From a virus: 20,380 bases of DNA. Below the pieces are notes generated by a model. That model saw only the letters and a list, made by a program, of their open reading frames with translations, did not search any database and was not told the DNA's origin. A program made the translations under genes and the position numbers. The stretch is from positions 1 to 20,380 of the IMG/VR virus record IMGVR_UViG_3300046332_000295. One strand, written 5' to 3'. Shown here one piece after another: positions 1 to 17,213 of this stretch. Each line of letters begins with the position of its first letter. Position 1 is the first letter of the stretch.

Positions 1-2
1 AT

Positions 3-83
3 TTTGGTAAACGCGCGTTCCTCCTCCCGCCCGTCCCCATCGTCGGCTTCCTCGAAGATGCCGAAGCCTTGGAGGACGCATAG
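3..83 (+). CDS. C-terminal end of an unidentified phage gene (partial)
   Basis: An open frame enters from the left edge and ends at TAG 81-83. It reads FGKRAFLLPPVPIVGFLEDA followed by EALEDA. The acidic alanine/glutamate-rich tail looks like a normal protein C-terminus, and the other two forward frames here look poorer (one hits a stop at once, one is Ser/Pro/Arg-rich). Only 26 residues are visible, so no family can be named. It would be the last gene of a rightward early or replication block; the next 190 bp are non-coding. I see no convincing intrinsic terminator right after it. Confidence 0.45.
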   Translation, partial: FGKRAFLLPPVPIVGFLEDAEALEDA

Positions 84-273
84 TGGGAAAGTGTAAATTT
101 TATTTTTCACAATACGGATTTTCTTGCAGATAGGTGTTTAAAATGATATAAAATTATTTCTATAGATGCCATTTTTAAAATCGCGTGTTTAAATTTGGCC
201 ATTTTTAAACATTAGGAGTTCCGCCACGTAGTACAAACCGTTAAAATTTGTGCGATTCCGTTAAAATTTTACC
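84..273. repeat. AT-rich non-coding spacer with three pairs of short direct repeats
   Basis: There is no ORF here. Three short words each occur twice: GTGTTTAAA at 134-142 and 185-193, GCCATTTTTAAA at 168-179 and 198-209 (30 bp apart), and CCGTTAAAATTT at 238-249 and 258-269 (20 bp apart). The last pair ends just before the -35 box of the antitoxin promoter. They could be binding sites for a phage regulator, iteron-like sites, or an UP-like AT-rich element; the sequence does not decide between these. Confidence 0.6.
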
Positions 274-303
274 TTGACAATTTTATAAAACTCTGCATAT
301 AAT
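274..303 (+). promoter_or_regulatory. Strong sigma-A type promoter of the type III TA locus
   Basis: A perfect TTGACA (274-279) and a perfect TATAAT (298-303) are separated by 18 bp, predicting a start near 310. It sits upstream of the tandem-repeat RNA and the toxin gene. A constitutive strong promoter before the repeats is the usual layout of type III toxin-antitoxin loci, where antitoxin RNA must be made in excess. Confidence 0.85.
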
Positions 304-310
304 AAGGATT

Positions 311-328
311 GTAAGGGTGTACCCTTAC
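311..328. promoter_or_regulatory. Palindrome at the transcription start (operator or 5' RNA hairpin)
   Basis: GTAAGGGTGTACCCTTAC has two perfect 8-bp arms around a central GT and begins where transcription should start. As DNA it is placed to act as a repressor operator. As RNA it folds into a 7-bp stem with a UGUA loop that would cap the 5' end of the antitoxin transcript. Type III systems are not known to need a protein autorepressor, so a phage repressor site or a protective hairpin are both possible. Confidence 0.6.
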
Positions 329-406
329 TTTGACAAATGAATTGACGTGTTCGCGTCGCATCTGTCCCGAAGAGGAGAGCCCCTTCCTATATCACCAAAA
401 AACGGG

Positions 407-490
407 GAATTAAAAAAGCGGTGAACTCTTTAACCGTAAGCGAGAATTAAAAAAGCGGTGAGCCTCTACCGTAAGTGAGGAATGAAAAAA
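407..490 (+). repeat. Tandem antitoxin repeats, 37 and 36 nt plus a partial third
   Basis: Units begin with GAAT at 407, 444 and 480. Units 1 and 2 share GAATTAAAAAAGCGGTGA, then a variable loop, then ACCGTAAG. Unit 3 is only GAATGAAAAAATG and runs into the 5' arm of the terminator. Each full unit has a CGGT/ACCG stem and an A-rich single-stranded part, which is where ToxN-family enzymes typically cut. The length falls in the usual type III repeat range. Confidence 0.85.
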
Positions 491-522
491 TGCAGGGTGG
501 TTTTTTGCTACCCTGCATTTTT
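486..522 (+). terminator. Intrinsic terminator between antitoxin repeats and toxin gene
   Basis: AAAAATGCAGGGT (486-498) pairs perfectly with ACCCTGCATTTTT (510-522), a 13-bp stem with a GC core, an 11-nt loop and a T tract. In type III systems this terminator limits read-through so that antitoxin RNA exceeds toxin mRNA. The position, 29 nt before the toxin start codon, fits that role. Confidence 0.92.
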
Positions 523-551
523 ATTGGTTTTAGCCTGTTGAGGAGGAAAAT

Positions 552-1073
552 ATGGGCACATTTCGGTTTTATCACATTGAGGAAAATTACATACGTTATC
601 TGCGCACCATCGACCCACGCGTGCAATATAACAAAGGCGAACACCGCCCCTATATAGGTATAGTGCTTTCGTTGAACGGCATGGAGTATTACGTTCCACT
701 TGAATCTCCCAAACCCAACCATGTCAACATAAAATCGGGCGGCCCAGTTTTAAAGCTGGATGACGGCAAATTGGGTATAATGGGTTTCAATAATATGATT
801 CCGGTTCTTCCGGGAAGCTTGCTGCCTTTCGACATCCTTGCCATCGAGGACGAGAAGTACAAAATGCTCTTGCTTAATCAGTTGCGTTACTGCGAAAAGC
901 ACCGCGACGTCATATTGACCCGCGCGCAAAGCGTATACCGTAAGACTGTGGACAAAAAAATTCCGTTCTATGCCAAAGACTGCTGCGACTTTCGCAAACT
1001 AGAGCGCAGATGCAAAAACTACGACCCTCATTATCAGCCCCGAAGTAACCGGAAGCAACGTCGTAGGCTATAA
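552..1073 (+). CDS. Type III toxin, ToxN/AbiQ family endoribonuclease
   Basis: The protein has 173 residues, the usual size for ToxN/AbiQ. Family landmarks in order: FRFYHI..NYIRYLR (4-18), the core RPYIGIVLSLNGMEYYVPL (32-50), SPKPNH (52-57) matching the [T/S]SPK active-site motif, LGIMGFNNMIPV (about 74-85), and YKMLLLNQL after a D-rich linker. A basic tail (RSNRKQRRRL) ends it. Members cut mRNA and their own antitoxin RNA at A-rich sites, act in the cytoplasm, and several abort phage infection. The start has AGGAGG at 541-546, five bases upstream. It lies directly behind the antitoxin repeats and their terminator. Family identity is very likely; the subgroup (toxIN rather than cptIN or tenpIN) is judged by eye. 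As a phage gene it probably stabilises the element or excludes rival phages. Confidence 0.9.
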   Translation: MGTFRFYHIEENYIRYLRTIDPRVQYNKGEHRPYIGIVLSLNGMEYYVPLESPKPNHVNIKSGGPVLKLDDGKLGIMGFNNMIPVLPGSLLPFDILAIEDEKYKMLLLNQLRYCEKHRDVILTRAQSVYRKTVDKKIPFYAKDCCDFRKLERRCKNYDPHYQPRSNRKQRRRL

Positions 1074-1076
1074 CGC

Positions 1077-1203
1077 AGACGCTCTTGAATATTGCATTTT
1101 AGGCGAGTGCCTTGTATACTGTATCTAGGATGCAGACCTCGCCGCGCGAGCCTTTTTGGCAGCGTACCATGGCGAGGTCGTTTCTTTTCTTAGCTGAGCG
1201 TCT
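1077..1203 (+). terminator. Structured intergenic region, probable toxin-gene terminator
   Basis: This gap between toxin and the convergent gene holds nested inverted repeats. GACCTCGCC (1135-1143) pairs with GGCGAGGTC (1171-1179), with an inner GCC-T5-GGC hairpin (1150-1160), followed on the + strand by GTTTCTTTTCTT. A small AGGC-GAGT-GCCT hairpin lies at 1101-1112. The flanks AGACGCTC (1077-1084) and GAGCGTCT (1196-1203) also pair. The T-rich tail after 1179 supports termination of toxin mRNA; the outer pairing may be chance or a larger fold. Confidence 0.5.
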
Positions 1204-1399
1204 ATTCTTGCATGTTATCCGGTACAGGCTCGTATGTTTCTTCAAAAATCTCCTTTGCGCATGGATAGCGCTCTCCGCGAACGCCGGTTATGATCCAATC
1301 TCCCGCATTCGCATGCATACGCCCCTCCAGCGTGTCGATGCATATTTCTTCATCCGTTTGGTACGCCTCAACAACTACCGGCTTTTTTCTGAATTTCAT
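1202..1399 (-). CDS. Small phage protein, PGDYG-like
   Basis: This 65-residue protein starts MKFRKKPVVVEAYQTDEE and continues with AGDWIITGVRGERYPC and FEETYEP. The RKKPVVVEA start and the [P/A]GD[Y/W]I..G..GE.YP..x..F..TYE pattern are typical of a small family common in phages and usually annotated as PGDYG or hypothetical; its function is unknown. The start at 1399 was chosen over a longer in-frame ORF from 1555 because GGAGGG lies about six bases upstream of this ATG and the extra N-terminal residues look non-coding. It is convergent with the toxin gene. Its only visible promoter is at 1621-1649, with an intrinsic terminator in between, so expression may depend on read-through or antitermination. 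Confidence 0.8.
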   Translation of the reverse strand: MKFRKKPVVVEAYQTDEEICIDTLEGRMHANAGDWIITGVRGERYPCAKEIFEETYEPVPDNMQE

Positions 1400-1440
1400 A
1401 ACAAACCCTCCGCTTTTTGCTGCAAGTTGGTGACGCAAGC

Positions 1441-1614
1441 AAAACAAAGAGCCGCCAGCATTCCCCGTCTGGCAGCTCTTGTTCGTTGACATTGTCGCAC
1501 AGCGCGAAGCAGTAGGCCGCAGCCAATCGCTGTCGCTCTTGGGCGTCCCTTGCATAGGTCTCGCGCTCCAAACGCAAAGCGTTTGGGCTCGGCCGCAATG
1601 TACCGTCTAATCTG
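1441..1614 (-). ncRNA. Candidate small RNA or attenuator leader, about 170 nt
   Basis: A near-consensus promoter and an intrinsic terminator bracket this stretch on the minus strand. Internal structure includes a perfect CCAAACGC-TTT-GCGTTTGG hairpin (1568-1586), a GGG/CCC and a CAGC/GCUG hairpin, and a possible GGCCG/CGGCC closing stem. I recognise no known RNA family. It may be a free-standing phage small RNA, or the long 5' leader of the PGDYG-like gene with a conditional terminator. An overlapping 96-aa ORF was rejected because the promoter lies inside it. Confidence 0.55.
1447..1480 (-). terminator. Intrinsic terminator upstream of the PGDYG-like gene (minus strand)
   Basis: Read on the minus strand, AAGAGCTGCCAG pairs with CTGGCGGCTCTT (12 bp with one G-U) around a 10-nt loop and is followed by TTGTTTTG. 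On the plus strand there is no T tract, so it acts leftward. It lies between a strong minus-strand promoter and the start codon at 1399, so it either ends a small RNA or works as an attenuator. Confidence 0.8.
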
Positions 1615-1620
1615 TTGTTC

Positions 1621-1649
1621 AGTATATCACGCAAAATTCGCCCTGTCAA
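1621..1649 (-). promoter_or_regulatory. Strong minus-strand promoter
   Basis: On the minus strand TTGACA (1649-1644) and TATACT (1626-1621) are exactly 17 bp apart, predicting a start near 1614. It is one of the best promoter matches in the window and points toward the candidate RNA and the PGDYG-like gene. Confidence 0.75.
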
Positions 1650-1729
1650 TTTGGCCATTTCGTGAGGTCGCGAAAATGATACCCATGCATAAAACCAAAA
1701 AACTCGAGTTCCGGTTTTACAAACAAGAA

Positions 1730-1762
1730 TAAACCTCCGGTGCTACCAACACCGGAGGTTTA
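1730..1762. terminator. Perfect 13-bp hairpin upstream of integrase
   Basis: TAAACCTCCGGTG (1730-1742) pairs perfectly with CACCGGAGGTTTA (1750-1762) around a 7-nt loop. The minus-strand side is followed by TTCTTGTTTG, so it could stop transcripts coming leftward from the integrase region. On the plus strand the tail is only TATAG. It may insulate the integrase gene from the TA and small-RNA units. The remaining sequence to 1868 holds only the integrase leader. Confidence 0.6.
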
Positions 1763-1868
1763 TATAGACAGCTTACCCCAAAGATGGAATAATCCACCAC
1801 CAAACGTGATTATACCACCTCTGGGGCAGGCTTGTCAAAGTATACCCAAAATGGAGGTGTGTAAGCAC

Positions 1869-2897
1869 ATGGCAAAGAAAAAATCAATGTACCAGCGCTC
1901 GGATGGGCTGTACGAGAAGAAAGTGACCATAAATGGAAAGCGCGTTGTGTTTCGCGGCAAAACCGAGCGAGAAATTTTTCAAAAAATTGCCGCGCACCAA
2001 GAAAAGGCCGAACGTGGTCTCACATTTGAAGACATGGCCAATGAATGGTGGGAAGATAAAGAACCTCGTCTCTCTCCGAATTCTGTGGGAGGTTACAATG
2101 CGGCCTTGCGACGCGCTATAGAGCGCTTTGGGGACGCGCCGCTCCAAGAAATCAACGCCACGCAAATCCGCAGCTGGCTCAATCATCTTGGCAAGCAAGG
2201 GTTTGCTCGCAAAACCGTGTCCAATCATTTAATTGTCATTACCGGCATTTTCTCATGGGCTTGCGAAAATCGCAATTATAAAGAAAACCCCTCCACGCTG
2301 GTTCACGTTCCCGATGGCTTAACAAAAAAGAGGCGCAAAATGCCAACGTCTGAAGAAATTTTCGCAATTCAAGCAGCTAAGAACAATCCGGATGGTTTGT
2401 TTTTCTATTTTCTCCTATACACAGGCTTGCGCCGCGGCGAAGCGCTTGCCCTGCAATGGAAAGACATTGATGCTGACCAAAATGTGATTCGCGTAACACG
2501 GTCACTATATTATGCTGGACACAACAAGGGCTCTTTCAAAGCACCCAAAAGTGATGCTGGCGAACGCGAAGTAATTTATCTCGACCGACTCAAGGGCGCA
2601 CTGGAACCGCACCGCAGCACTCCTGAGAGCTTCGTATTTGGCGGAGATTCTCCCCTTACATACAAAGCCCTTCAATGCCTCTTAAAACGCTATTGCAAGC
2701 AAACCGGATTAAATGTAACACCGCACCAGTTACGCCACGCTTTTGCCACTCTTTGCTTTGAGGCAAACATCCCTGAGAAAACAGCCCAAGGCTTGTTGGG
2801 GCACGCGCAGCTGTCAACCACAATGGACATCTATGCCGAGCTGCGTGACCGGAAACGCATGGAGGCCGCCGCCGCGCTGAATGGCACCGATTTCTAA
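1869..2897 (+). CDS. int: Tyrosine recombinase integrase
   Basis: A 342-residue site-specific recombinase for integration and excision. The N-terminal arm-binding domain (about 8-50) has the DGLYEKKVTINGKR..FRGKTERE pattern. A SAM-like core-binding domain follows (about 51-150). The catalytic domain has R188 in TGLRRGEAL, K227 in APKSD, H286 and R289 in HQLRHAF, H312 in LLGHAQ, and the tyrosine nucleophile Y322 in DIYAEL, so all key residues are present. The start at 1869 was chosen because GGAGG (1853-1857) precedes it; the upstream extension to 1740 runs through a hairpin and looks non-coding. The attachment site begins three bases after the stop, and its arm repeats fit the arm-binding domain. 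No excisionase is seen nearby. Confidence 0.95.
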   Translation: MAKKKSMYQRSDGLYEKKVTINGKRVVFRGKTEREIFQKIAAHQEKAERGLTFEDMANEWWEDKEPRLSPNSVGGYNAALRRAIERFGDAPLQEINATQIRSWLNHLGKQGFARKTVSNHLIVITGIFSWACENRNYKENPSTLVHVPDGLTKKRRKMPTSEEIFAIQAAKNNPDGLFFYFLLYTGLRRGEALALQWKDIDADQNVIRVTRSLYYAGHNKGSFKAPKSDAGEREVIYLDRLKGALEPHRSTPESFVFGGDSPLTYKALQCLLKRYCKQTGLNVTPHQLRHAFATLCFEANIPEKTAQGLLGHAQLSTTMDIYAELRDRKRMEAAAALNGTDF

Positions 2898-2899
2898 TT

Positions 2900-2917
2900 G
2901 GCACAGTAGTGGCACAG
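2900..2917 (+). repeat. Integrase arm-type sites, left arm (two copies)
   Basis: GGCACAGTA occurs at 2900 and 2911, 11 bp apart, about one helical turn, directly after the integrase stop codon. The same word recurs in the same orientation on the other side of the core. This is the expected layout of arm sites bound by the integrase N-terminal domain. Confidence 0.8.
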
Positions 2918-2956
2918 TATCACCAAAAAACGGCGATATAATCCCATTTTAATAGA

Positions 2957-2980
2957 GTTCAAGTCCCTGATGCCCCACCA
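2957..2980 (+). other. attP: attP core: 3' end of a tRNA gene (T-loop to CCA)
   Basis: From 2957 the sequence reads G, the T-loop TTCAAGT, T-stem CCCTG, acceptor strand ATGCCCC, discriminator A and CCA. No matching tRNA 5' half lies upstream; the preceding T-stem side (TAGAG) pairs poorly with CCCTG. This is what a phage attachment core looks like: it restores the 3' end of the host tRNA on integration. The host tRNA should begin GGGGCAT and have T-stem CAGGG. The isoacceptor cannot be named. Confidence 0.8.
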
Positions 2981-2985
2981 AAATA

Positions 2986-3029
2986 AAAACCGCGCCAATA
3001 AGCTAGAAATGGCTTAACGGCGCGGTTTT
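2986..3029. terminator. Bidirectional terminator between attP core and late operon
   Basis: AAAACCGCGCC (2986-2996) pairs with GGCGCGGTTTT (3019-3029), with an inner TAAGC/GCTTA stem. On the minus strand the hairpin is followed by TTTTTATTTT, ending the long late operon. On the plus strand it ends in TTTT. After integration it would also lie directly behind the restored host tRNA gene. Confidence 0.88.
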
Positions 3030-3076
3030 CTCGTATTTGTTGCGTCGGGTTTCGTCGGTCAAAACGTAGCAAAAAT

Positions 3077-3105
3077 GGCACAGAAAAGGCACAGTAATGG
3101 CACAG
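3077..3105 (+). repeat. Integrase arm-type sites, right arm (three copies)
   Basis: GGCACAG occurs at 3077, 3088 and 3099, again with 11-bp phasing and in the same orientation as the two copies left of the core. The sites fill the gap between the terminator and the end of the giant gene. Confidence 0.8.
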
Positions 3106-3130
3106 CTGACGTCTTTAAAAACTTTTTCCA

Positions 3131-6100
3131 TCAATACGGATTCTTCGCCTTGCTCGCCAACCCAAACAGCGTCCGCTTTTGCTCCGTTTCTAGCCGGGCT
3201 GCGTCCAAGTACGCCTGCACTTCCGCTTTGGTTAAACTTCCGTTTCCGTCCGTGTCGGCGTTTAACAATAAAGCCACGTATTGCGCACCTAGTCCTTCTT
3301 CTTCGGCCAGCTCGTACTTCTCTAGCTTTGCGTCGCTGGCTACGTAGCTCCACAGCTTGGCGCGTGTGGTGTCGCTGGTTTTAAGGCTCGTCAGGTATTG
3401 TGTGGCCTCGTCGGTGCTCACGCTGCCGTCTTTGTCCGTGTCCGCGAAAATCATCATGTCCACAAATCTTCCGGCCATCTTGTCCTCTTTGGCTTGCGCC
3501 AGCTTCTCCAATTTGGCATCGCTGGCCGTCAGCTCCCACAGCTCGGTGCGCTGGCTCTGCGTCAAGTCGGCTTTCTTTAGGTAGGCGTTCACTTCCGCCG
3601 CATTTAGGCTGCCATTGTCATCGGTATCGGCGTTTAACATCATGTTCACATACTCTGTGCCCACGCCTTTTTCCTGTGCAGTGGCGTATTTCTTCTGCTG
3701 CGCCTCGGTGGCGTTCTGCTCCCACAAAAGGTCTCTCTGTTCGTCGCTCAAGCCCTCTGCGCTGTTAATCGCCTTGCTGGCCTCTTTGGCGCTCACGCTG
3801 CCGTTGTCGTCGGCATCCATGGTGTCCCACAGGTCAAACAGTTGGTCTGCCTCAACACCGGCTTCTTTCGCTTCCTTGTACTGCTGCGTTTTCTTCACGC
3901 TCAGCGGCGTGCCGTCGTTGTCGTAGTAGTCGCGCACTTCGCTGATAGCGCTTTTTCCGAACAATGCCGCGCGCACCCAGTTGGCCGCGCCGGGCAAGCT
4001 CAAAAAGTCGTTGTTTACTTCGGTTTGCAGTTGCTCGCCCTTTTTGCTCTGGGTGTACAGGCCGCCTTGTGCCATGGTAGACAAGCCCTCTACCGTTTTC
4101 TTTAGCTGGTTTCCGCCAAACGGCAGCAGCATGGTGGCCGTCGGTGCGACAGCGCCTTTCCATAGTTGCTCCGCTATGTAGTTAACCTTGTTAGGGCTGT
4201 CCTCCTCGCTGTCCGTCAATGCGCTCAGAGCGTTGCCTACTCTCGTCAGGTCGTAGCTGGGCAGCGGCAAGCGTCCATTGCCCATTCCCAACATAGCCAT
4301 GGCCGCCGATGCGTAGGGTACACTGCTCAACGTTTCCGTGGCCATGTTGCCCACGGCACCCGTCACGTTGGTGAGTGCGTTTTCATCGTCCTCTACCGTG
4401 AACAAATCCTCGAAGAAGTCCCACAAAATGCGCAGCGGATCAAAGGCCGGCGCGTAGCCTGTCAGCATCTCCAGTGCCGTGTTCAAAACATACGCGCCGC
4501 CCACATACTTGGCCGCACCGATGCCCACAGCCGTAGCCACCTCTCCCTTGCTCTTTCCTGCGCTCAGTTCTTCGCGCACGTAGGCGGGCAGGTCATCGAA
4601 CAAGTTGTAGAAGTCGTTGCTAACCTCCGTCTGGAACATCGTCAGCGCTTTAAAGAACGGATTCTTGCTCTCCATGTACAGTGGCCGCGAGCCTTTGTCA
4701 CGTCGCGCCATCATGTCGGCCGCGTATTGATTGGCCGCCATAATAGCCGCCTGTTGGCGCTGGGTGTAGTCGCCCTCTGTCTGCGTTTTCATCTCCGATA
4801 GGTAGCGAGAATAAAAGGCGAGGTCGGTCACGGCAGCCTCCACCGGTTCAAACAGATGGTCTTGCACCCAGTTGGATGCTTTCTGCGTCTTGCTCAGCGC
4901 CAGCAGGTCAACGCCTTTCTTGCCCTGCAAAAACTCGCTCTGCCCTGCAAGTCCGCTGCGCTTAAACTCTCCCGACACCAAGCCCCACGCCGCACGGGAA
5001 AAGTCCGACGCTTTCGACGTTGTGAAAATCTTTGGCACGGTAACAACGTTGTTGAGCGCGCTGCTCACGTTGCCCACTACGGAACTCCTGCCAAACTGCC
5101 CCATAATTTCGTTGGGAACATTCAGTGCCAAGCGGCCTAAGGCGTCCTCCACGGCGCGATCCATCAGCAGTTGCTTGCCGGCAAGCTTGTTGGTGTACTG
5201 CGTCAGCCAGCTTGCGAAGTTGCCGTAGCCCTTGTTGGCCTCGATGTCCATGTATTCGCCTTGAATCACCTTGTCGATTACCGCCCTGTCTGCCTCCGTC
5301 ATGTTCTCGCGCATTTCCAGCTTTGTCATGATGCTGTCCATGTGGTCTTTCATGTCGGTTAGGTTGTACCGCCCACGAATAGCCGCGTCCAAACTGCGCA
5401 GCTTCATCACGTCGTCGGTGTGGTACAACATGTCCATTACGCTCAGCGCGTAGCTCTGAAATCCCTGCTCGCAGTCGTAGGTAGTCTGCACGCCGCTTCG
5501 TTTTTGGAAGAACGATACCCAGCGGCTGCTGGGTCGGCGATCGGCGGTCAGGCCGTTCACGCTGGTGGGCAGTGTGCTTACACCGTCGTCCAACCCCATT
5601 TTCTTGCGCAGCTTCTCTATACCGTCGCTTTCGCTGAAATGTGGGAAATAGTTCTCCACCTTGCCGATGGGCGACATACCGCGCGATACGCGGTAATCAT
5701 TGATGACGTTGTAAAACTCCTCGTAGGTCTTGGTGTAAAAGTCTACCGCGTTCTTCACTTTCTCGGCGCTCACGTCGCCCATGTGTTCCAAAATAGTCTT
5801 GGCTTCCTTTTGGTTCATGTACTTGGGCAGGCTGGTCACGCCCACATTACCCTTTTCGATGTCCTCTATGGTGATAGGTCGGCCATTTTCGCCAATGGTC
5901 TGCTCGCCAACCAGCTGCACCAAGCGGCGCTCGGTGTCGTTCAGGTCTAAGGCGCGCGCCTCGTCAAATAGCTGGTTTAACACCTGGGTCTTAGCGCTTT
6001 CGTTGTAGTGGATGGGCGTTATCAGGTCATCCACCAACTTTTGCCCCAGCGTATCCCCAAACACCTTGCGGAACACGCGCTCCGGCGTGCGGCTGTTCAT

Positions 6101-9100
6101 GCCGATGCGGCTTATCAGTCCATCTTTTGCAATGGCTTCTAGGTTGTCTTGGCTTTCCAGCATGCTCTTGTATTTCGCCTGCTGCATGAAGAAAATCTGC
6201 TCTTTCGTGCCTTGCACACCGTTGGCTTTCGCGTCCGCCTGCATCTGCGCCACATTGGCCAGCGTCTGCACCACGTTGGCGCGGTCTTGTGCGCCGATGT
6301 CGCGCATTTCAATCTCGCCGGTGGCCACGGCGCGCGCATTGCGCACTTCGCTGGCTGTGGCGCTCATCGCGTCGGCCAGTTGGTTAAACTCGTTCCTCAG
6401 CTTCTTCGCCTGTGTCTCTGCCGCCATTATCTGCGCCGCCGTGTCGGTGTTGCTCACGCCCATGGTGATAGGATGCTGCACAATTTTCTCGCGCAAACCG
6501 ACGGCCGCGCCGCTTTGTGTGGATTCTTTTGCACTTTGCTGCGCAGTTTCGCTTGCGCCGCTTTGTGTAGATATCTCTGCCGCATTTTGCGCTTGATTGA
6601 ATAACGGCAGGCCGCCTTGCATCGATGTGCCCCCGTTGCGCACCTGCTGCACGTGCTCCCGTATGTCCGTTCCGTCTGATAGGGTGGTGGGCACGTGGAG
6701 GCTGTGGAACTCGCTCAACCCGCTGTCCTCTTGGAGCTGTCCTGTTTTAAAGAAGCTTTTGATGTCGTTTACAACGCGGTCGCCGCGCACATTGCCTTGA
6801 TACCGCTTGGTTGCCAAAATTTCGCCATTTCCCCCGGAAATATCCAAGCCGAACCCGTGTTTGGCTTTGCCAAGCGTGTCGGCCATTGTGCGGATTTTTT
6901 GCAGCTGCGCAGTGCTCGGCATCGTTTCGCCCGAAATATCCACGCCGGGGCTTTCCGGCATCACGCGCACATTCCCTTCGGCGATAAAGCGGTTCATTGC
7001 CGCCGTCCCGGTCTGGTTTTCTCCCAGTTCGGTCGTACCGAAAACGTCAACAATTTCTCGGTGGTCGCTGCCGCGTTGATTTTTTCCGTCTCCGAAATTC
7101 AACATTGTGCCGTCTTGCAAAATATACCCGGCACTCTCAAAACGCGTTGTCGTGCCAAACGCCTTGGCCGCCTCTTGCGCGTGATATTGTTCCGCCGTCA
7201 ATCCGCTTTCTTGCATAGCTTGGTCGTAAGCCTGCTGCTTGTATGCACTCATCTCTTGTTGCAAGGCACGGTATCGCTCGTTCAATGCGCCCTCTTGTTC
7301 GCGCAATCTCGCGGCGCGCTCATCAAAGGCTTTACGGTGCTGTTCGTAGGTTTTCCAGTCTTGGCTTTGTTCTTGCCATTCCTTTAGCCTGAAAATTCCG
7401 CGTTCTTTCTTCGCCGCTTCCCTTTTCGCCAGAATGTCCCGTACTGCCTCACTGTCTTCCCACGCGCTTCGCTCTTGAGCCAGCGCACGTTTCTCGCTTC
7501 GCAGTTCCGTAAGGGCTTCGCTTATGTTCTGCGTTGCAACGTCGGCATTGTTTACCAGATTTCGTCCATTTCTTCTTTCGTTGTTCCTGCGGCCATCAAA
7601 TACAACGTTTCTTCCGTCCAGTTCTTCTGCTTCAAGGCTTCTTCCTGCTCCTCGGGTGGCATTCCAAGTATCTTCCACGCCTCCAACGCTGTTTCCATTC
7701 TCTCGGGCGGCAATGGTTCCGGAAACGCGTACGCTGGGTATTTCTCCATTTTCTCCATCAGCTTCATAAACTCCTCGTCGCTTTCCATCTAATTCACCCC
7801 TATTTTTGGTTTCGTCCTCAGCGTATCCCATTTGTCGCAACATGTCAATGTATTTTTTTGTTGATGGCTGAGCATAGCGCACATTTCCAGTTAGGTCGGG
7901 AGTATTTTTTCTTAGTTCCTCCCTATTCAGCATCAGTCGGTTGGCAACGTCGCGCGCCTCCACCTCTCCTGCTGCTTCATTGTATTTTTTTGTGTGAGCT
8001 GCTTTCCAGCTTTTGCTTTCTGTTTGCTCTGCTGCGTACTGTTTAACATAATCCATGCGTTCTTCTGGCGTTTTGAGTTTCTTGTACTCTGCGCTATCTC
8101 TTACCGCCTCAAACGCTTCAATTTCCGCCCAATGCTTTGCCTTTGTTGGATTGCTCCCTCCCGCAAATCCCTCTCTAATTTGGATAGCATGTTGAATTTC
8201 ATGCAGCGCCGTGCCCTTAGGTGCGCCCCTCATTAGAGAGATGCTGTTGTCGCCAATGTTATATCTTCCCTCCAGCATATCCTTGCCATCTAAATCCATT
8301 TTTAGGCGCATGTTAAGTATGTCGGGATAACTTCGCTCTAGCTCCGGATGATAAAGCGCCTCGCGTAGATACACTTCATCTCGCAGCGGCTCTTTGTATA
8401 CTGCCTTGCTGTCATCTATTTCGGTGCGCCACTTTCCGTCAGCACCCCTAAACCATCCTGTCTGTTGGCGTATTGTCTCTGGGTCTTGCCCATCTTGCTC
8501 CATCTCTTGTGCTCTGGCCTGCTGGGTCAGGTCTACACCCCTCGCGTTTACGCCCACATAGCTGTACTTCGTCCCCTCCACCTCGGAGCTCTCGCCGCGC
8601 AGCAGGTTTACCAGCGTTCTTTCCGCTTCGTCCAACATTGCCTTTTCGCTGTTTTTCAGCGTGATGGCAATGTTGTTTTTTATGCCGCGTATAAAGTCTA
8701 AGAAGCTCTCTATCAATGTGCGGTCATGCCCCACCAGCTCCAGCAGGGTGTCCGGGTCTTGGGCTATCTGCTCCGCAATTTTCAGGCACACTTCTTCGTT
8801 CAGCGCATTTGTGTTTATCGTGCCGTCTGCATTCAACACGCTTTCCCGCGCCGCGCTGCCCTCGGCAGTGTACGCATTGCGCACTTGGTCGGCGTATTCG
8901 CCCATGGCTGCGTTTCGCTGGGCATAGTTCAGTATGGCCTTTTGGAAGGCTTTCCACTGGCGCGCATTGTTGGTTTTCATCGCGTGCCCCGTCTCGTGCA
9001 CTGCCGACGAAAACGCACTGTTTGTCATGGCAAGGTTCACGGTCATGGTGTCGCCTGCGATCCACGCGTCTGCCTGGCTGTTTTCTTCATACACATAGGC

Positions 9101-11479
9101 CACATTCAGGCCGCCGTGTTTTGCCAGCTTCTCCACTGCGTCCAGTTCTTGCTGTGTTACGCGCTGCTGCTGCAAGGCGTAATCCTTGGCCGCCTCGCTG
9201 GTTATCGCCGCATTTTCCAGCGTGCGCAGCTGCGCCACCTTGTGCCGCTCGCCCGTTTGTGCGTTTGTTTCATACAGTGGCAAGTTTGTTTTCTCTGTCG
9301 TGCTCTGTGCTTGGTTGAATATCGGCAGCCCACCCTCTTGCGCTGTGCTCGCCGCTTTGGTGTTGTTTTTAACGCTGTCAACCCCTGCGGCGTTGTTTTC
9401 GATGACACTTTCGGTGACACTTTTCGCAACTTCTTGCGAGTTTGCTCCAACTTCTTGTGAATTCGATGCAGCACCTTGCGCCGTATCCGGCAGAGGCAGC
9501 AGCGTTATCCCCTGCTCGGCGGCGTCCGCTTGGTTTTGCATCGCCAATACACCGATGTCGTAGGCGCTCACCGTGCCCCCGTCGGTTACATCCAAGGCCA
9601 GCTGCTGCGCCAGTTGGTTCGCCCTGGTGCTCTCCGGCAGGCTCAACCCTTGGCTGATTACGTCGTTTTGCAAGCTACCTTGCGTCATCTGTTGGCCGAT
9701 GGTGCTTGCGTACACATTGTTGCGCACCAAGCCTGCCGACCCCATCAGGCCGCCGCTCAGCGCACCGGCTAAACCGGCTTCGCCTACACGTTTCGCAATG
9801 TACAACGCCGTGGCCAGTGTGGCCTGTGCTTTTGTATCGTCCGGGTGTTCTTCCATGTACTGTGCCGCATACTGCGCCAGCTCGCTTTCGTCACCAAGAA
9901 TCACCATCTCTGAGAGAATGTTCATTACCTCGGTGGCCGATTCTTCCGTAAATTCGTTGCCCATCTGCGCCGCCGTGCGCTTCAAAAATTCTTTCACGCT
10001 GCGCGTCGCGCCGCTTCCTGCCAATTCTTCCAGCTTGCTGAAGCTGAAGCTTTCGCCCAAGTACTCGGCCACGCCGTTGGCCACGCCCAGCGCCAGCGCC
10101 TGCCCGGGCGTGCCGCCTTGCTCTGCCGCTTGGTATGCCCCGCTGCCTGCGCTTTGCAAAGCCATCATGGCCGGTGCGGCCGCGCCAAACAGTGCTATAT
10201 TCACTACGTTGTCTATGGTGGACAATCCCGCGCTGGTCAAGAACTTCGCCCAGTCCGGCATATCGGCTGTAATGCCCTCGGTGGCCGCGCCGGCAATCTT
10301 CTGCCCTATCATGTTTGCATTGTTCGCGTCCATGGGCACGTAGTTGCCCGTCGCGTCGCTCACTACCTTTTCTGCCGCGTCCAGCACGGCCAGCGGTTTG
10401 GTGGCAATGGTGCTCACGTTCAGCCCCGTGCCGTACAGTGCACCCGCCACGCCGCTGTCGGCCAGCTCATAAGCCTTGTCGCTTTTCTCTGTGGCGTTGG
10501 CCTCGTTCAAGGCTCGTTCTAGGGTTTTAAAATAGGCCAGAGCGCTCTTTTTGTCCCCTTTGTTCAGGTAGTAGTTATACACCGCCAGCTGGTCGTCGGT
10601 CATGTAGTTCACGCGATCGTCCATGGCCACGTTGTCCGTCTCGTCGAACAGTGTTCCTATACCGCCGGATGTCGTTGCGCCGGAGAATATCCCTAAAAAC
10701 GGGCTGCCGCCGCTGTAGTCCTCTTTGCGGCTCAATCCACCCTGTGCTGCCACGGTGGCAAAATCCGGGTCGCTCATGGCTGTTTGTTCCAGCTCCGTGC
10801 GCTTGGCGGTTTGCTCGCTGTAATACTTCTGGTTTTTTGCGTCCGTCACAGCCTGCGCCCTCTCGGCCAGCTCTGCCGAACCCTGTGCGCCGGCTTCAAT
10901 TATTTCTTCCGCTTTGTCATAATCCATTCCCTGCGCCAACAGGCTTGCCTTCGTCAGCGTTTGGCCTATGCCGGTGTTGTTCACTAAGTTTTGCAGCTTT
11001 TCGCCCAGCCCCAGCTTTTGCTCCAGCGCCGCGTTGTAGGTTTCCTCGTCGTAGCCCTCGCCTGTCGCGTCCTGCGCCGCAAGGCTCTCCTGTGCCACCT
11101 GTGCACGCTGCTCATTGGTCAGTGTCGGTGTGGTCTTGCTGCTCTGTGCCGTTTCGTTTATCGCCGCAGCGTCCAGCCCTTGCGTGCCGGCAGTCACCGC
11201 GTTGCCAAAGCCTATCAGCCAGTCGCCCAGCGACGTTTTCTTTGTCGTCTGTGCGTCCTCCTGCGCCGTTTCGCCCAGTATCGGCAAGCTCACAATCTCC
11301 GATTTTTGGCTTGCTTTCTCCTGCGTGCGCTGCTTTGCCATCTCGGCCTGATAGGTGTCGTTCCAAATTTTGGCGTATTCGTCCTGCTCGCTCTGCGCCC
11401 GTGTGCGCTGCTGCGCCTTTGCCATCTCCGCCTGATAGGTTTCGCTCCATATTTTGGCATATTCGTCCATCTTCGACAT
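3131..11479 (-). CDS. Giant polyvalent virion/ejection protein with metallopeptidase and EF-hand motifs
   Basis: A 2782-residue protein, GGAGGG six bases before its ATG. It opens with two copies of DEYAKIWxxTYQAEMAK (from residues 5 and 33). Ala/Gly-rich helical segments follow (about 350-600). A first zinc-peptidase-like motif HETGH is at 828-832 and a second, HEIQH, at 1093-1097, the latter in a segment resembling large polyvalent protein-associated domains with GEVEARDV further on. Coiled coil covers about 1310-1450; a domain with GYILQDG and SDHREI follows. Long helices lead to FFKALTMFQTEVSNDF (about 2271) and a possible membrane-active helix near 2315-2335. Four EF-hand loops end the protein (2555-2753). 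Size, position and modular architecture fit an internal virion protein injected with the DNA of a short-tailed phage; the peptidases might mature virion proteins or attack cell-envelope proteins. These roles are inferred. Shadow ORFs on both strands were ignored, except one at 7552-7788. Confidence 0.85.
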   Translation of the reverse strand: MSKMDEYAKIWSETYQAEMAKAQQRTRAQSEQDEYAKIWNDTYQAEMAKQRTQEKASQKSEIVSLPILGETAQEDAQTTKKTSLGDWLIGFGNAVTAGTQGLDAAAINETAQSSKTTPTLTNEQRAQVAQESLAAQDATGEGYDEETYNAALEQKLGLGEKLQNLVNNTGIGQTLTKASLLAQGMDYDKAEEIIEAGAQGSAELAERAQAVTDAKNQKYYSEQTAKRTELEQTAMSDPDFATVAAQGGLSRKEDYSGGSPFLGIFSGATTSGGIGTLFDETDNVAMDDRVNYMTDDQLAVYNYYLNKGDKKSALAYFKTLERALNEANATEKSDKAYELADSGVAGALYGTGLNVSTIATKPLAVLDAAEKVVSDATGNYVPMDANNANMIGQKIAGAATEGITADMPDWAKFLTSAGLSTIDNVVNIALFGAAAPAMMALQSAGSGAYQAAEQGGTPGQALALGVANGVAEYLGESFSFSKLEELAGSGATRSVKEFLKRTAAQMGNEFTEESATEVMNILSEMVILGDESELAQYAAQYMEEHPDDTKAQATLATALYIAKRVGEAGLAGALSGGLMGSAGLVRNNVYASTIGQQMTQGSLQNDVISQGLSLPESTRANQLAQQLALDVTDGGTVSAYDIGVLAMQNQADAAEQGITLLPLPDTAQGAASNSQEVGANSQEVAKSVTESVIENNAAGVDSVKNNTKAASTAQEGGLPIFNQAQSTTEKTNLPLYETNAQTGERHKVAQLRTLENAAITSEAAKDYALQQQRVTQQELDAVEKLAKHGGLNVAYVYEENSQADAWIAGDTMTVNLAMTNSAFSSAVHETGHAMKTNNARQWKAFQKAILNYAQRNAAMGEYADQVRNAYTAEGSAARESVLNADGTINTNALNEEVCLKIAEQIAQDPDTLLELVGHDRTLIESFLDFIRGIKNNIAITLKNSEKAMLDEAERTLVNLLRGESSEVEGTKYSYVGVNARGVDLTQQARAQEMEQDGQDPETIRQQTGWFRGADGKWRTEIDDSKAVYKEPLRDEVYLREALYHPELERSYPDILNMRLKMDLDGKDMLEGRYNIGDNSISLMRGAPKGTALHEIQHAIQIREGFAGGSNPTKAKHWAEIEAFEAVRDSAEYKKLKTPEERMDYVKQYAAEQTESKSWKAAHTKKYNEAAGEVEARDVANRLMLNREELRKNTPDLTGNVRYAQPSTKKYIDMLRQMGYAEDETKNRGELDGKRRGVYEADGENGEIPSVRVSGTIAARENGNSVGGVEDTWNATRGAGRSLEAEELDGRNVVFDGRRNNERRNGRNLVNNADVATQNISEALTELRSEKRALAQERSAWEDSEAVRDILAKREAAKKERGIFRLKEWQEQSQDWKTYEQHRKAFDERAARLREQEGALNERYRALQQEMSAYKQQAYDQAMQESGLTAEQYHAQEAAKAFGTTTRFESAGYILQDGTMLNFGDGKNQRGSDHREIVDVFGTTELGENQTGTAAMNRFIAEGNVRVMPESPGVDISGETMPSTAQLQKIRTMADTLGKAKHGFGLDISGGNGEILATKRYQGNVRGDRVVNDIKSFFKTGQLQEDSGLSEFHSLHVPTTLSDGTDIREHVQQVRNGGTSMQGGLPLFNQAQNAAEISTQSGASETAQQSAKESTQSGAAVGLREKIVQHPITMGVSNTDTAAQIMAAETQAKKLRNEFNQLADAMSATASEVRNARAVATGEIEMRDIGAQDRANVVQTLANVAQMQADAKANGVQGTKEQIFFMQQAKYKSMLESQDNLEAIAKDGLISRIGMNSRTPERVFRKVFGDTLGQKLVDDLITPIHYNESAKTQVLNQLFDEARALDLNDTERRLVQLVGEQTIGENGRPITIEDIEKGNVGVTSLPKYMNQKEAKTILEHMGDVSAEKVKNAVDFYTKTYEEFYNVINDYRVSRGMSPIGKVENYFPHFSESDGIEKLRKKMGLDDGVSTLPTSVNGLTADRRPSSRWVSFFQKRSGVQTTYDCEQGFQSYALSVMDMLYHTDDVMKLRSLDAAIRGRYNLTDMKDHMDSIMTKLEMRENMTEADRAVIDKVIQGEYMDIEANKGYGNFASWLTQYTNKLAGKQLLMDRAVEDALGRLALNVPNEIMGQFGRSSVVGNVSSALNNVVTVPKIFTTSKASDFSRAAWGLVSGEFKRSGLAGQSEFLQGKKGVDLLALSKTQKASNWVQDHLFEPVEAAVTDLAFYSRYLSEMKTQTEGDYTQRQQAAIMAANQYAADMMARRDKGSRPLYMESKNPFFKALTMFQTEVSNDFYNLFDDLPAYVREELSAGKSKGEVATAVGIGAAKYVGGAYVLNTALEMLTGYAPAFDPLRILWDFFEDLFTVEDDENALTNVTGAVGNMATETLSSVPYASAAMAMLGMGNGRLPLPSYDLTRVGNALSALTDSEEDSPNKVNYIAEQLWKGAVAPTATMLLPFGGNQLKKTVEGLSTMAQGGLYTQSKKGEQLQTEVNNDFLSLPGAANWVRAALFGKSAISEVRDYYDNDGTPLSVKKTQQYKEAKEAGVEADQLFDLWDTMDADDNGSVSAKEASKAINSAEGLSDEQRDLLWEQNATEAQQKKYATAQEKGVGTEYVNMMLNADTDDNGSLNAAEVNAYLKKADLTQSQRTELWELTASDAKLEKLAQAKEDKMAGRFVDMMIFADTDKDGSVSTDEATQYLTSLKTSDTTRAKLWSYVASDAKLEKYELAEEEGLGAQYVALLLNADTDGNGSLTKAEVQAYLDAARLETEQKRTLFGLASKAKNPY
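3224..3817 (-). repeat. Four EF-hand repeats at the C-terminus of the giant protein
   Basis: Loops DADDNGSVSAKE (2555-2566), DTDDNGSLNAAE (2618-2629), DTDKDGSVSTDE (2680-2691) and DTDGNGSLTKAE (2742-2753) each match the 12-residue calcium loop D-x-D-x-[DN]-G-x(5)-E. They recur every 62-63 residues, each followed by a similar helix, showing tandem duplication. Calcium binding is expected from the motif. Confidence 0.88.
6591..6616 (-). repeat. Second copy of a 26-bp imperfect repeat in the giant gene
   Basis: This copy encodes GGLPLFNQAQ (about residues 1622-1631). The first copy at 9309-9334 encodes GGLPIFNQAQ (about 716-725) and differs at four of 26 bases. They flank a 2.7-kb block with both HExxH motifs and the overlapping ORF, and sit in linker-like Ala/Gln/Ser/Thr-rich protein. 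Confidence 0.75.
7552..7788 (-). CDS. Overlapping 78-aa ORF inside the giant gene
   Basis: This ORF is out of frame with the giant gene and on the same strand. It starts MESDEEFMKLMEKMEKYPAY and ends at TAA 7554-7552. AGGGGTG lies about eight bases before its ATG. The product is acidic, Met/Glu-rich and helix-like with a hydrophobic pattern (FPEPLPPERMETALEAWKIL, TLYLMAAGTTKEEMDEIW). In the giant frame the same DNA gives a Gly/Arg/Asn-rich stretch in which nearly all glycines are GGA and CGA/AGA arginines abound, unlike the rest of that gene. This suggests the 78-aa frame is the one under selection. No function is recognised. It may be a true overprinted gene, or the remains of a separate gene now read through in another frame. 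Confidence 0.55.
   Translation of the reverse strand: MESDEEFMKLMEKMEKYPAYAFPEPLPPERMETALEAWKILGMPPEEQEEALKQKNWTEETLYLMAAGTTKEEMDEIW
9309..9334 (-). repeat. First copy of a 26-bp imperfect repeat in the giant gene
   Basis: Encodes GGLPIFNQAQ just after a low-complexity linker containing NSQEVGANSQEV. Its partner lies at 6591-6616. The repeats may mark domain borders that recombined as a cassette, or processing sites. Confidence 0.75.
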
Positions 11480-15163: not shown

Positions 15164-17209
15164 TTACAAATCAGCAGACGCTGTAAACGTCAACGAGTAA
15201 CAGGCTCCCGTTTGCCACGATGAAATACTGCCGTCTATCGTCACGGTCAGAAGTATCGCATTATTGTAGCGTGTTGAAACGGCAACCCCTTTTATCGCAT
15301 ATACAGTTCCGTTGCATACAAAGTTATCTAAGTTTGACGGAAGAGTAATGGTTGGAGTTGTCCGCATAGTCACTGGTAGAGGTACATTCAAATAAACAGT
15401 CGAATTTAAAACCGAACCTACAATTTTGGAAATAGGGATATATTGATAGTAGCGTTTGCATTTTGCCAACTCTTCTGCATATCCCTTGTCGTACCATGGC
15501 GTTGCGCCGGTGCCGGCTTCCACCTTAGCCCATGTAACGGTGCAGGCGGTGTCTGCTTGTATGTTAAGACGTTTTACGCTGCTGTCCCACCATGTTGTCA
15601 CCGTTCCGGAAGATACCCCCACCTGTTTGGTTACCTCTGAGCCTGGGTCACGTTCTAGCGTTTGAAAAATTACTGTACCTGCGGTAAGCGCAAGCCCCGA
15701 GGAAGACAGCGTTACAGAACCATTGTTCAAATACCAACGGTCAATGAAATAACCCGTTTTCGTAATTGTGCCTGATGCGCTTCGCTGGTTAACCGGATTC
15801 AGGAAATTGCTGTTGTCCAGTAAATTGGGGCGGGCGGCAATGCTCAGCGCCGTGTCCGCGGTATTCTGCGCTGCTGTTGCCACATTGTTCACAGCCTCAA
15901 TCGCCGCCTTTTGCGCCGTGCTTACCGGCTTGTCTGTGTCAGCGGTGTTGTTAACGCTACCAAGCCCAACCTGCGCCGCTGTCACCTCGTGGGGGTTCGT
16001 CGCCTTGAAGTGCTTCACGAGCTGTGTTGCCCCCTGCGCCAATTTCCCAAGCGTCACGCTTAGCTTTTCGCCGCTGGTCGGCTGAATGTCGCCATAAAGC
16101 GTCGCGTCGAACGTCGGTGTCTGGTCGTCGGTGGCCACGTTTGGCACGTTGCCCAAGCCAATGTCCTCTTTCGTCAAAACAACGTCCGCCACGCTCTTGC
16201 CGTTCACGCTCTGCACCAAGCCCGGCTCGCCCTGTGCGCCTTGCGGGCCTGTCGGCCCTTGTACGCCCTGCTCGCCCTTCACGCCTTGCACCCCTTGAAT
16301 GCCTTGTACGCCCTGCTCGCCTCGCTCGCCCTGTATTCCTTGAATACCCTGCGGGCCCTCGTCGCCGGTGTCACCTTTATCGCCTTTATCGCCCTTGTCA
16401 CCCTTGTCTCCCTTAGGGCCTTGCGCGCCAGTCGGGCCTTGTGCGCCTTGCAGCGGCCCCAAATTCACCCATGTGCTTGTCTGCATGTCCCAGAGATACA
16501 CTTCGTTATACTCAGCGTCTCCCACTGCGTAGCACTCGCCCAACGCACCCGTAGCGTGCGATGCCTTCAACGCGTCCAGCGTGGCATATAGGCCACCCGG
16601 CTGCAAGCTGGTGCCGTCCTTGCCTGCGTCGCCCGTGTCACCCTTATCGCCTTTATCGCCTTTTGCACCTTGCGCGCCCGTGTCGCCCTTTTCTCCCTTT
16701 TCGCCACGCGCACCGCGAGCGCCCTGCACACCTTGTGGCCCTTGAGGGCCTGTCGGGCCTTGCACGCCCTGCTCGCCCTGCTCGCCCTGTATCCCTTGAA
16801 TGCCCTGCTCGCCTTTGTCTCCTTGCTTGGCTGTCAGGATTGTCACATTGCCGGTGTCTCTTACCGTTGCGCCGGTAATTTGCAGCCTGCCGCGCTGGGG
16901 CATCACTTCGCCCACGTCGTTTAAAATCAAGTGGCCGCCGCTGCCCACCGTCTCAAAAATCACTCCGTCTTTCGACGCCTCAATCTGCCCGTCATCGTTC
17001 AGGCGCATCACAGCGAAGTCCTCGCACTGCACGGCGTTTTCCAGTCCCTTTTCTTCCATCCACTCCACCGTGGCGTTGTGCTTTTCCTGCAATTCCTCAG
17101 CGCGCAGGTCAAACTGCTTCTTTAACCATTCCGCTTTGTTCACATGCGTGTCGCTCAATTTTGCAATCGATGCCACAAACGCTTTCAGCTTCAATTTGTC
17201 CAAACCCAT
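15164..17209 (-). CDS. Collagen-like tail fibre / receptor-binding protein
   Basis: The product has 681 residues. An N-terminal helical, virion-attaching region (1-60) and a small beta domain (about 65-125) precede two collagen-like Gly-X-Y blocks (130-199 and 255-330). A carbohydrate-binding-like module with GGLYATLDALKASHATGALG and VYLWDMQTSTWVNLGPL (205-253) separates them. Next come NPHEVTAAQVGLGSVNNTAD-type fibre repeats, then a jelly-roll-like C-terminal region ending ELAKCKRYYQYIP and a beta-rich tip. Collagen stretches trimerise fibres; the tip probably binds the host surface. The start at 17209 has GGAGGTG upstream, four bases after the preceding gene; the longer ORF from 17269 overlaps that gene and was rejected. 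Confidence 0.88.
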   Translation of the reverse strand: MGLDKLKLKAFVASIAKLSDTHVNKAEWLKKQFDLRAEELQEKHNATVEWMEEKGLENAVQCEDFAVMRLNDDGQIEASKDGVIFETVGSGGHLILNDVGEVMPQRGRLQITGATVRDTGNVTILTAKQGDKGEQGIQGIQGEQGEQGVQGPTGPQGPQGVQGARGARGEKGEKGDTGAQGAKGDKGDKGDTGDAGKDGTSLQPGGLYATLDALKASHATGALGECYAVGDAEYNEVYLWDMQTSTWVNLGPLQGAQGPTGAQGPKGDKGDKGDKGDKGDTGDEGPQGIQGIQGERGEQGVQGIQGVQGVKGEQGVQGPTGPQGAQGEPGLVQSVNGKSVADVVLTKEDIGLGNVPNVATDDQTPTFDATLYGDIQPTSGEKLSVTLGKLAQGATQLVKHFKATNPHEVTAAQVGLGSVNNTADTDKPVSTAQKAAIEAVNNVATAAQNTADTALSIAARPNLLDNSNFLNPVNQRSASGTITKTGYFIDRWYLNNGSVTLSSSGLALTAGTVIFQTLERDPGSEVTKQVGVSSGTVTTWWDSSVKRLNIQADTACTVTWAKVEAGTGATPWYDKGYAEELAKCKRYYQYIPISKIVGSVLNSTVYLNVPLPVTMRTTPTITLPSNLDNFVCNGTVYAIKGVAVSTRYNNAILLTVTIDGSISSWQTGACYSLTFTASADL
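16220..16447 (-). repeat. Collagen-like Gly-X-Y block 2 of the tail fibre
   Basis: Residues 255-330, with GDKGDKGDKGDKGDTG and several GIQGIQG and GVQGVQG units. The DNA repeats closely (G-P-T-G-P-Q-G is shared with block 1), so recombination or slippage between blocks could change fibre length. Confidence 0.85.
16613..16822 (-). repeat. Collagen-like Gly-X-Y block 1 of the tail fibre
   Basis: Residues 130-199, with GEQGVQGPTGPQGPQG and GDKGDKGDTG units. It shares several words with block 2, which lies 166 bp further along the gene. Confidence 0.85.
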
Positions 17210-17213
17210 ACTC

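Follow-up and report, generated by a model that had tools for sequence, protein, structure and literature searches.

The window, by which we mean the whole stretch of DNA analysed, corresponds to a 20,380-base virus record in IMG/VR, on whose minus strand a giant ORF (11479..3131) wholly encloses, in the +1 phase, a second ORF of 78 codons (7788..7552), which starts with an ATG at giant codon 1231 and ends in TAA. The arrangement is that of an embedded gene pair, with both ORFs on the same strand, each in its own frame, and the smaller one provided with its own start codon and ribosome-binding site (AGGGGTGA, -6.5 kcal/mol). The first-pass annotation had reported a gene within a gene at 7552-7788 with its own ribosome-binding site, without giving the strand; the ORF, the preceding AGGGGTG(A), and the ATG were all confirmed. 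The features to which we refer, from 5' to 3' along the giant gene, are the following:

3131..11479, minus strand: giant host gene, encoding a 2782-aa phage polyvalent protein and open across the small gene in the other frame.
9566..10660, minus strand: N-terminal module, residues 274-638, recognized by its conservation.
8402..8566, minus strand: LPD23 domain, residues 972-1026 of the giant protein (E 7e-20).
7520..8419, minus strand: stretch of low GC and low GC3, about codons 1021-1320, covering the module end and the small gene.
8189..8203, minus strand: HEIQH zincin motif, residues 1093-1097, in a metallopeptidase-like module lying immediately 5' of the small gene.
7802..7930, minus strand: C-terminal tail of the LPD23/HExxH module, ending in ...YIDMLRQMGYAEDETKN; the homologous tail is a natural gene end in loci L116 and L195.
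7794..7801, minus strand: Shine-Dalgarno (SD) sequence of the small gene.
7789..7791, minus strand: TAG stop in the small frame, abutting the ATG.
7552..7788, minus strand: candidate nested small gene, 78 aa, pI 4.25, ATG to TAA in the +1 frame of the giant gene, with a coding signal.
7552..7790, minus strand: putative giant-frame passenger, a Gly/Arg/Asn-rich linker at residues about 1231-1310, delimited from the codon listing and scores.
6707..7426, minus strand: next giant-frame module, residues 1352-1591, with homologues in L108, L123, L134, and L119.
3857..6103, minus strand: C-terminal module, residues 1793-2541, recognized by its conservation.

The giant product was assigned to the polyvalent proteins from its LPD23 match, its HEIQH motif, and a context of phage structural genes like that of Bacillus phage Page: the giant gene sits among structural genes, and a 632-aa protein of the window is related to a protein of that phage. 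(A close relative is the IMG/VR contig L015, which has 94% identity to the first 190 residues of the 632-aa protein and does not reach the giant gene.) Residues 274-638 and 1793-2541 match the giant protein of MT835607 (L010), and residues about 965-1204 match peptidase-like modules of many phages, a module of the LPD23/HExxH type being the end of a stand-alone protein in many of them; residues 1231-1310 are covered by none of the giant's matching relatives. Since the module at residues 1352-1591 has homologues, the giant frame appears to be a real protein again 3' of the small gene. A partition of the locus into three separate genes—A, the small one, and C—was ruled out, in that C lacks a start codon around 7550 and, on both sides, the homologous modules are in one frame. 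Codons 1021-1320, poor in GC and GC3 for the giant gene, are on that account a likely acquired cassette, in which both the small gene and the end of the module lie.

Certain other features of the window deserve mention. EF-hand matches are found near the giant C terminus, where Asp-rich EF-hand-like repeats occupy positions 3131-3800 (minus strand). A linker motif, GGLP(I/L)FNQAQ, is repeated on either side of the peptidase/small-gene part of the giant protein, once in a linker some 240 residues downstream of the N-terminal module and once near residue 1620; that motif resembles the GLxLP motif of the nested family described below and may mark module joints. Positions 15164-17269 (minus strand) encode a 701-aa tail-fibre-like protein with collagen-like Gly-X-Y repeats, and the DNA matches to tail fibres of Erwinia and Cronobacter phages are short and come from that repeat only.

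The SD sequence stands at a normal spacing from the small-ORF ATG, which codon is immediately abutted by the in-frame TAG. The SD duplex has an energy of -6.5 kcal/mol, versus -6.9 for the window's own 632-aa gene, and so an ordinary value in this phage; an SD of this quality precedes 5 of the 146 ATGs inside the giant gene, two of the others falling within the small ORF, and is weaker than at most gene starts in the same phage. The product, MESDEEFMKLMEKMEKYPAYAFPEPLPPERMETALEAWKILGMPPEEQEEALKQKNWTEETLYLMAAGTTKEEMDEIW, is acidic, and a single-sequence AF2 model of it is helical, with a mean pLDDT of 73 for the best of five models and about 52-56 for the rest, consistent with the folded acidic protein that the first-pass annotation had considered plausible; a fold search with that model returned nothing significant. 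The product is not itself a spanin of the Rz1 type, a Pro-rich lipoprotein with signal peptide and lipobox: the 78 residues include neither a Cys nor a hydrophobic leader. A stand-alone search with the 78-aa protein, which the same annotation had proposed as a check, yielded zero homologues in the databases and genomes scanned: Pfam, PHROGs, NCBIfam, PADLOC, PDB, phages, plasmids, and GTDB contigs; IMG/VR, queried with two degenerate patterns and with 8-mers; and genomes of the order and class of an Oscillospiraceae genome, in about 785 scans. Matches at L001 (10 aa, inside a DNA polymerase-like ORF) and at L091-L093 were rejected as due to chance.

By length the small ORF is unexceptional, being the third-longest +1 open run in the giant gene and matched by 62% of codon-shuffled giants. 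Codon-usage scores built from the genes of the window itself were, over codons about 1231-1309, +0.23 for the small frame and -0.15 for the giant frame, while over the rest of the giant gene all 78-codon windows in the +1 frame scored -0.02 or less and all giant-frame windows -0.03 or more. The maximum-likelihood switch segment, computed without information on start or stop codons, comprised codons 1226-1307 with an LLR of 30.5 (next best elsewhere, 8.6), the edges of which segment agree to within about 5 codons with the small ORF from its ATG to its last codon (1231-1308); all other alternative-frame runs of at least 60 codons in the giant gene had a negative coding score. The signal is concentrated at the two acidic ends of the small ORF, some 25 middle codons being neutral. 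Because the codon signal thus switches to the small frame almost exactly from ATG to stop, and does so uniquely in the giant gene, the small frame looks like the older coding frame, with the giant gene reading the same bases as a linker. GC3 over the overlap is 0.65 in the small frame, a phage-like value, versus about 0.35-0.40 in the giant frame. The latter had been described as rich in Gly, Arg, and Asn, with GGA, CGA, and AGA codons and unlike its flanks, and we indeed count 34 such residues among 79, encoded mainly by those three codons. With the giant residues fixed, the small frame stayed open with a probability of 0.0006 under codon permutation and 0.07 under synonymous resampling; with the small protein fixed, the corresponding probability for the giant frame was 0.14-0.31. 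This asymmetry (0.06-7% versus 14-31%) suggests that the small frame is the primary one, with the giant frame as its passenger.

Corresponding positions in three further loci bear on the origin of the arrangement. In L115 the giant frame runs past the same LPD23/HExxH tail and there contains a 67-aa ORF in the +1 frame with a positive coding LLR. In the viral contig L116 and in L195, a Subdoligranulum variabile plasmid, a module tail (ERIGYTEDEI...) homologous to the window's MLRQMGYAEDET ends a gene, and the next gene, which overlaps it, is an acidic one of 160-170 aa. The small proteins in this slot of the window, L115, and L116 are unrelated to one another. The module and the small gene in L116 and L195 constitute a cassette duplicated in tandem (positions 1-5300 and 849-6331, respectively) upstream of a capsid-like gene, and between the copies in L116 the small gene is less similar (86%) than the module (96%). 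At the junction, L116 has the run GGGGGG and copy 2 of L195 the run GGGGGGG: with seven Gs the upstream gene stops at a GTGA stop/start overlap, with six it continues in the +1 phase. Since these runs differ by one base, a single-step route from adjacent to overlapping genes is plausible, which single-base-indel route is visible between L116 and L195 and not within the window. A candidate nested case at L116@241 was dropped, its stop-to-stop ORF probably reaching upstream of the true start.

To place the window among other long phage genes, we scanned 329 ORFs of at least 500 aa and found 1,277 ORFs of 45 aa or more nested within them. A coding LLR above 10 was reached by 22 of these, and after the removal of edge and spurious cases the remainder were all in the +1 frame; the matches in L059, L012, L119, and L088 were dropped as spurious-looking. 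A shared core emerged in L132, L139, and L010, with L134 and L135 similar, and a profile search of 394 genomes from the order of G001—with alignment A3 as the query, in which the first residue of the L139 row was set to M by hand—added L196(rc), L197, L198, L199(rc), L201, L202(rc), and L204(rc), all of them +1 within long ORFs and those marked rc lying on the reverse complement. The resulting family thus comprises proteins of 55-83 aa, each encoded in +1 within one of 12 other giant ORFs, with the core xVExxDGxLVSVPxDKLxxWqkAQ and often an N-terminal GLxLP motif; a search of Pfam and PHROG with it found no family above noise. The window's 78-aa protein is not a member: queries with the family, whose core for that comparison was '(Y)xVExxxGxLVSVPxDKLxxW', gave zero matches to the window at E<=0.01.

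Within this family the mean pairwise Z was 6.7 for the small frame versus 1.3 for the giant frame, from which values the small frame is conserved and the giant frame over it is not. Selection on the smaller frame, which the first-pass annotation had suspected in the window, is thereby shown for this family of equivalent nested ORFs. The members with a clear ATG have SD energies of -6.6 to -11.7, versus a mean of -3.2 for background ATGs, and those SDs are mostly canonical (GGAGG). In 9 of 11 independent members an HExxH motif follows the small ORF at 81-95 codons, versus 2% at random positions; the window differs in having its HExxH 138 codons upstream of the small ORF. For the seven intact members that were found irrespective of the giant frame, the chance of that frame being open in all is about 1e-10 (synonymous resampling, product), which value suggests that both frames are maintained; over 14 cases, a set partly selected for open frames, the log10 of the product is -18.3. 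In a phase simulation, given the small proteins' sequences, the host frame could usually stay open when the small ORF was in +1 and rarely in +2, and the mostly closed +2 phase offers a possible reason for the exclusive +1 placement. A family member in L200/L205 has one stop in the giant frame and is a decayed copy, seemingly a chromosomal remnant. Three GC-rich phages (L141, L159, and L173) have a strong +1 codon signal after an HExxH module, with WDPEEEGRxExEAYQKHRQRQRGGPV in the +1 frame over a conserved Ala/Gly-rich giant frame; we counted these as supporting cases only, in that both frames look conserved and the SD is weak. Such ORFs therefore occur at about 18 loci—the window, L115, L021, the three GC-rich cases, and the 12 of the conserved family—all in +1 and mostly adjoining a zincin domain, so that the nested architecture recurs in unrelated phages and seems to be a recurrent design that has been overlooked, not a frame left open by chance.

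On these comparisons of sequence, we consider it probable that the 78-aa ORF is a real small phage gene, formerly a neighbour, that was overprinted after the upstream gene lost its stop and whose own start is still used. In the ancestral state, the LPD23/HExxH metallopeptidase module would have formed the end of one gene, with the small gene standing separately and directly 3' of it; an indel of one base where the two met would have removed the upstream stop; and the upstream frame, by luck open in the +1 phase, would have traversed the small gene and become fused to further modules. The small protein would be made from the same message by internal initiation at its own SD and ATG, and the giant protein would read the same bases out of frame as a flexible linker.

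An identical pattern of codon signal would be expected if the 78-aa stretch had once been in the giant's frame and two indels at its edges had displaced it to +1, the ATG, the SD, and the stops being accidental, and a low-complexity linker could tolerate such a compensating pair. That history, however, requires each of two indels to have fallen within a few codons of its mark—the one of the TAG-ATG with its SD, the other of the TAA—and the nested family members elsewhere display canonical GGAGG SDs, conserved small frames, and nearby in-frame stops; we accordingly regard it as improbable. Quite improbable, too, is that the giant protein is the sole product and that the small frame, in an unusual linker rich in purines, is open by chance: the unremarkable length and the want of homologues would fit, but the coding log-likelihood of the small ORF is unequalled in the giant gene, an LLR above 10 is rare among the nested ORFs scanned, and the SD and ATG are correctly placed. 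Recent birth of the small frame inside a pre-existing giant gene, although a known origin of nested viral genes (PMC8227390) and compatible with an orphan protein, is very improbable, in that it predicts the reverse of the phage-like codon usage and GC3 that sit in the small frame instead of the giant, and in that the small gene is separate in the homologous architecture of L116 and L195. The first-pass annotation had left the choice between an overprinted and a captured gene; the captured gene is favoured, since the small frame carries the coding signature, and the newly overprinted one is not.

If the overprinted former neighbour is accepted, the likeliest role of its product, though one that we hold to be doubtful, would be that of a small trans-acting partner of the adjacent metallopeptidase, such as an inhibitor or chaperone quieting that enzyme until packaging or injection; the sole pointer to a regulator or inhibitor role is that such ORFs repeatedly adjoin a zincin metallopeptidase domain. 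Because the proteins of the window, L115, L116, and the conserved family are not detectably related, a function common to them is something we infer. In a more general and likewise tentative form, which we rate a little more favourably, giant polyvalent proteins may routinely host +1 small genes in the linkers flanking their zincins, the products being trans-acting peptidase partners—inhibitor, chaperone, or co-packaged regulator—that spread as two-frame cassettes. Should the products indeed regulate the peptidase, they would help to account for the control, ahead of delivery, of an injected protein that bears a protease. Since gene-finding programs usually suppress any ORF that is nested within a long gene, a class of small phage proteins may be missing from the catalogues.

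Polyvalent proteins of phages and conjugative elements are giant multidomain proteins with zincin-like metallopeptidase modules, for which processing of their own polypeptide or action on host proteins has been proposed (Iyer et al., 2017; PMC5512222). The giant protein of the window resembles them in its zincin motif and in its LPD23, which is Pfam's 'large polyvalent protein associated domain', and differs in that one of its linkers contains a separate small gene in another frame. Neither 'overlapping' nor 'frameshift' occurs in the main text of that paper, and 'nested' appears twice, of a protein fold; in the literature searched, which includes few subscription papers, we met with no account of genes nested in polyvalent proteins. 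The toxin-immunity cassettes of polymorphic toxins offer another likeness, in that a peptidase module is followed by a small gene and the duplicated cassette of L116 has the small gene as its less similar part (86% versus 96%); in the window, however, the small gene is inside and not after the host gene, and an immunity role for it would be hypothetical.

The closest architectural precedent among the systems compared is a nested +1 phage gene, Rz1 within Rz of lambda, of which both overlapping and separate versions exist elsewhere, and for which loss of the upstream gene's stop codon was envisaged as one route to embedded spanin genes (PMC6139136). As in lambda, a small gene is contained complete, in the +1 phase, within a larger one of the phage, and both genes have starts of their own. 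Whereas Rz1 is a lipoprotein and Rz a membrane lysis protein, the host gene in the window encodes a polyvalent protein of more than 2,700 codons, and the nested product is predicted to be a soluble, acidic, helical protein encoded within an interdomain linker.
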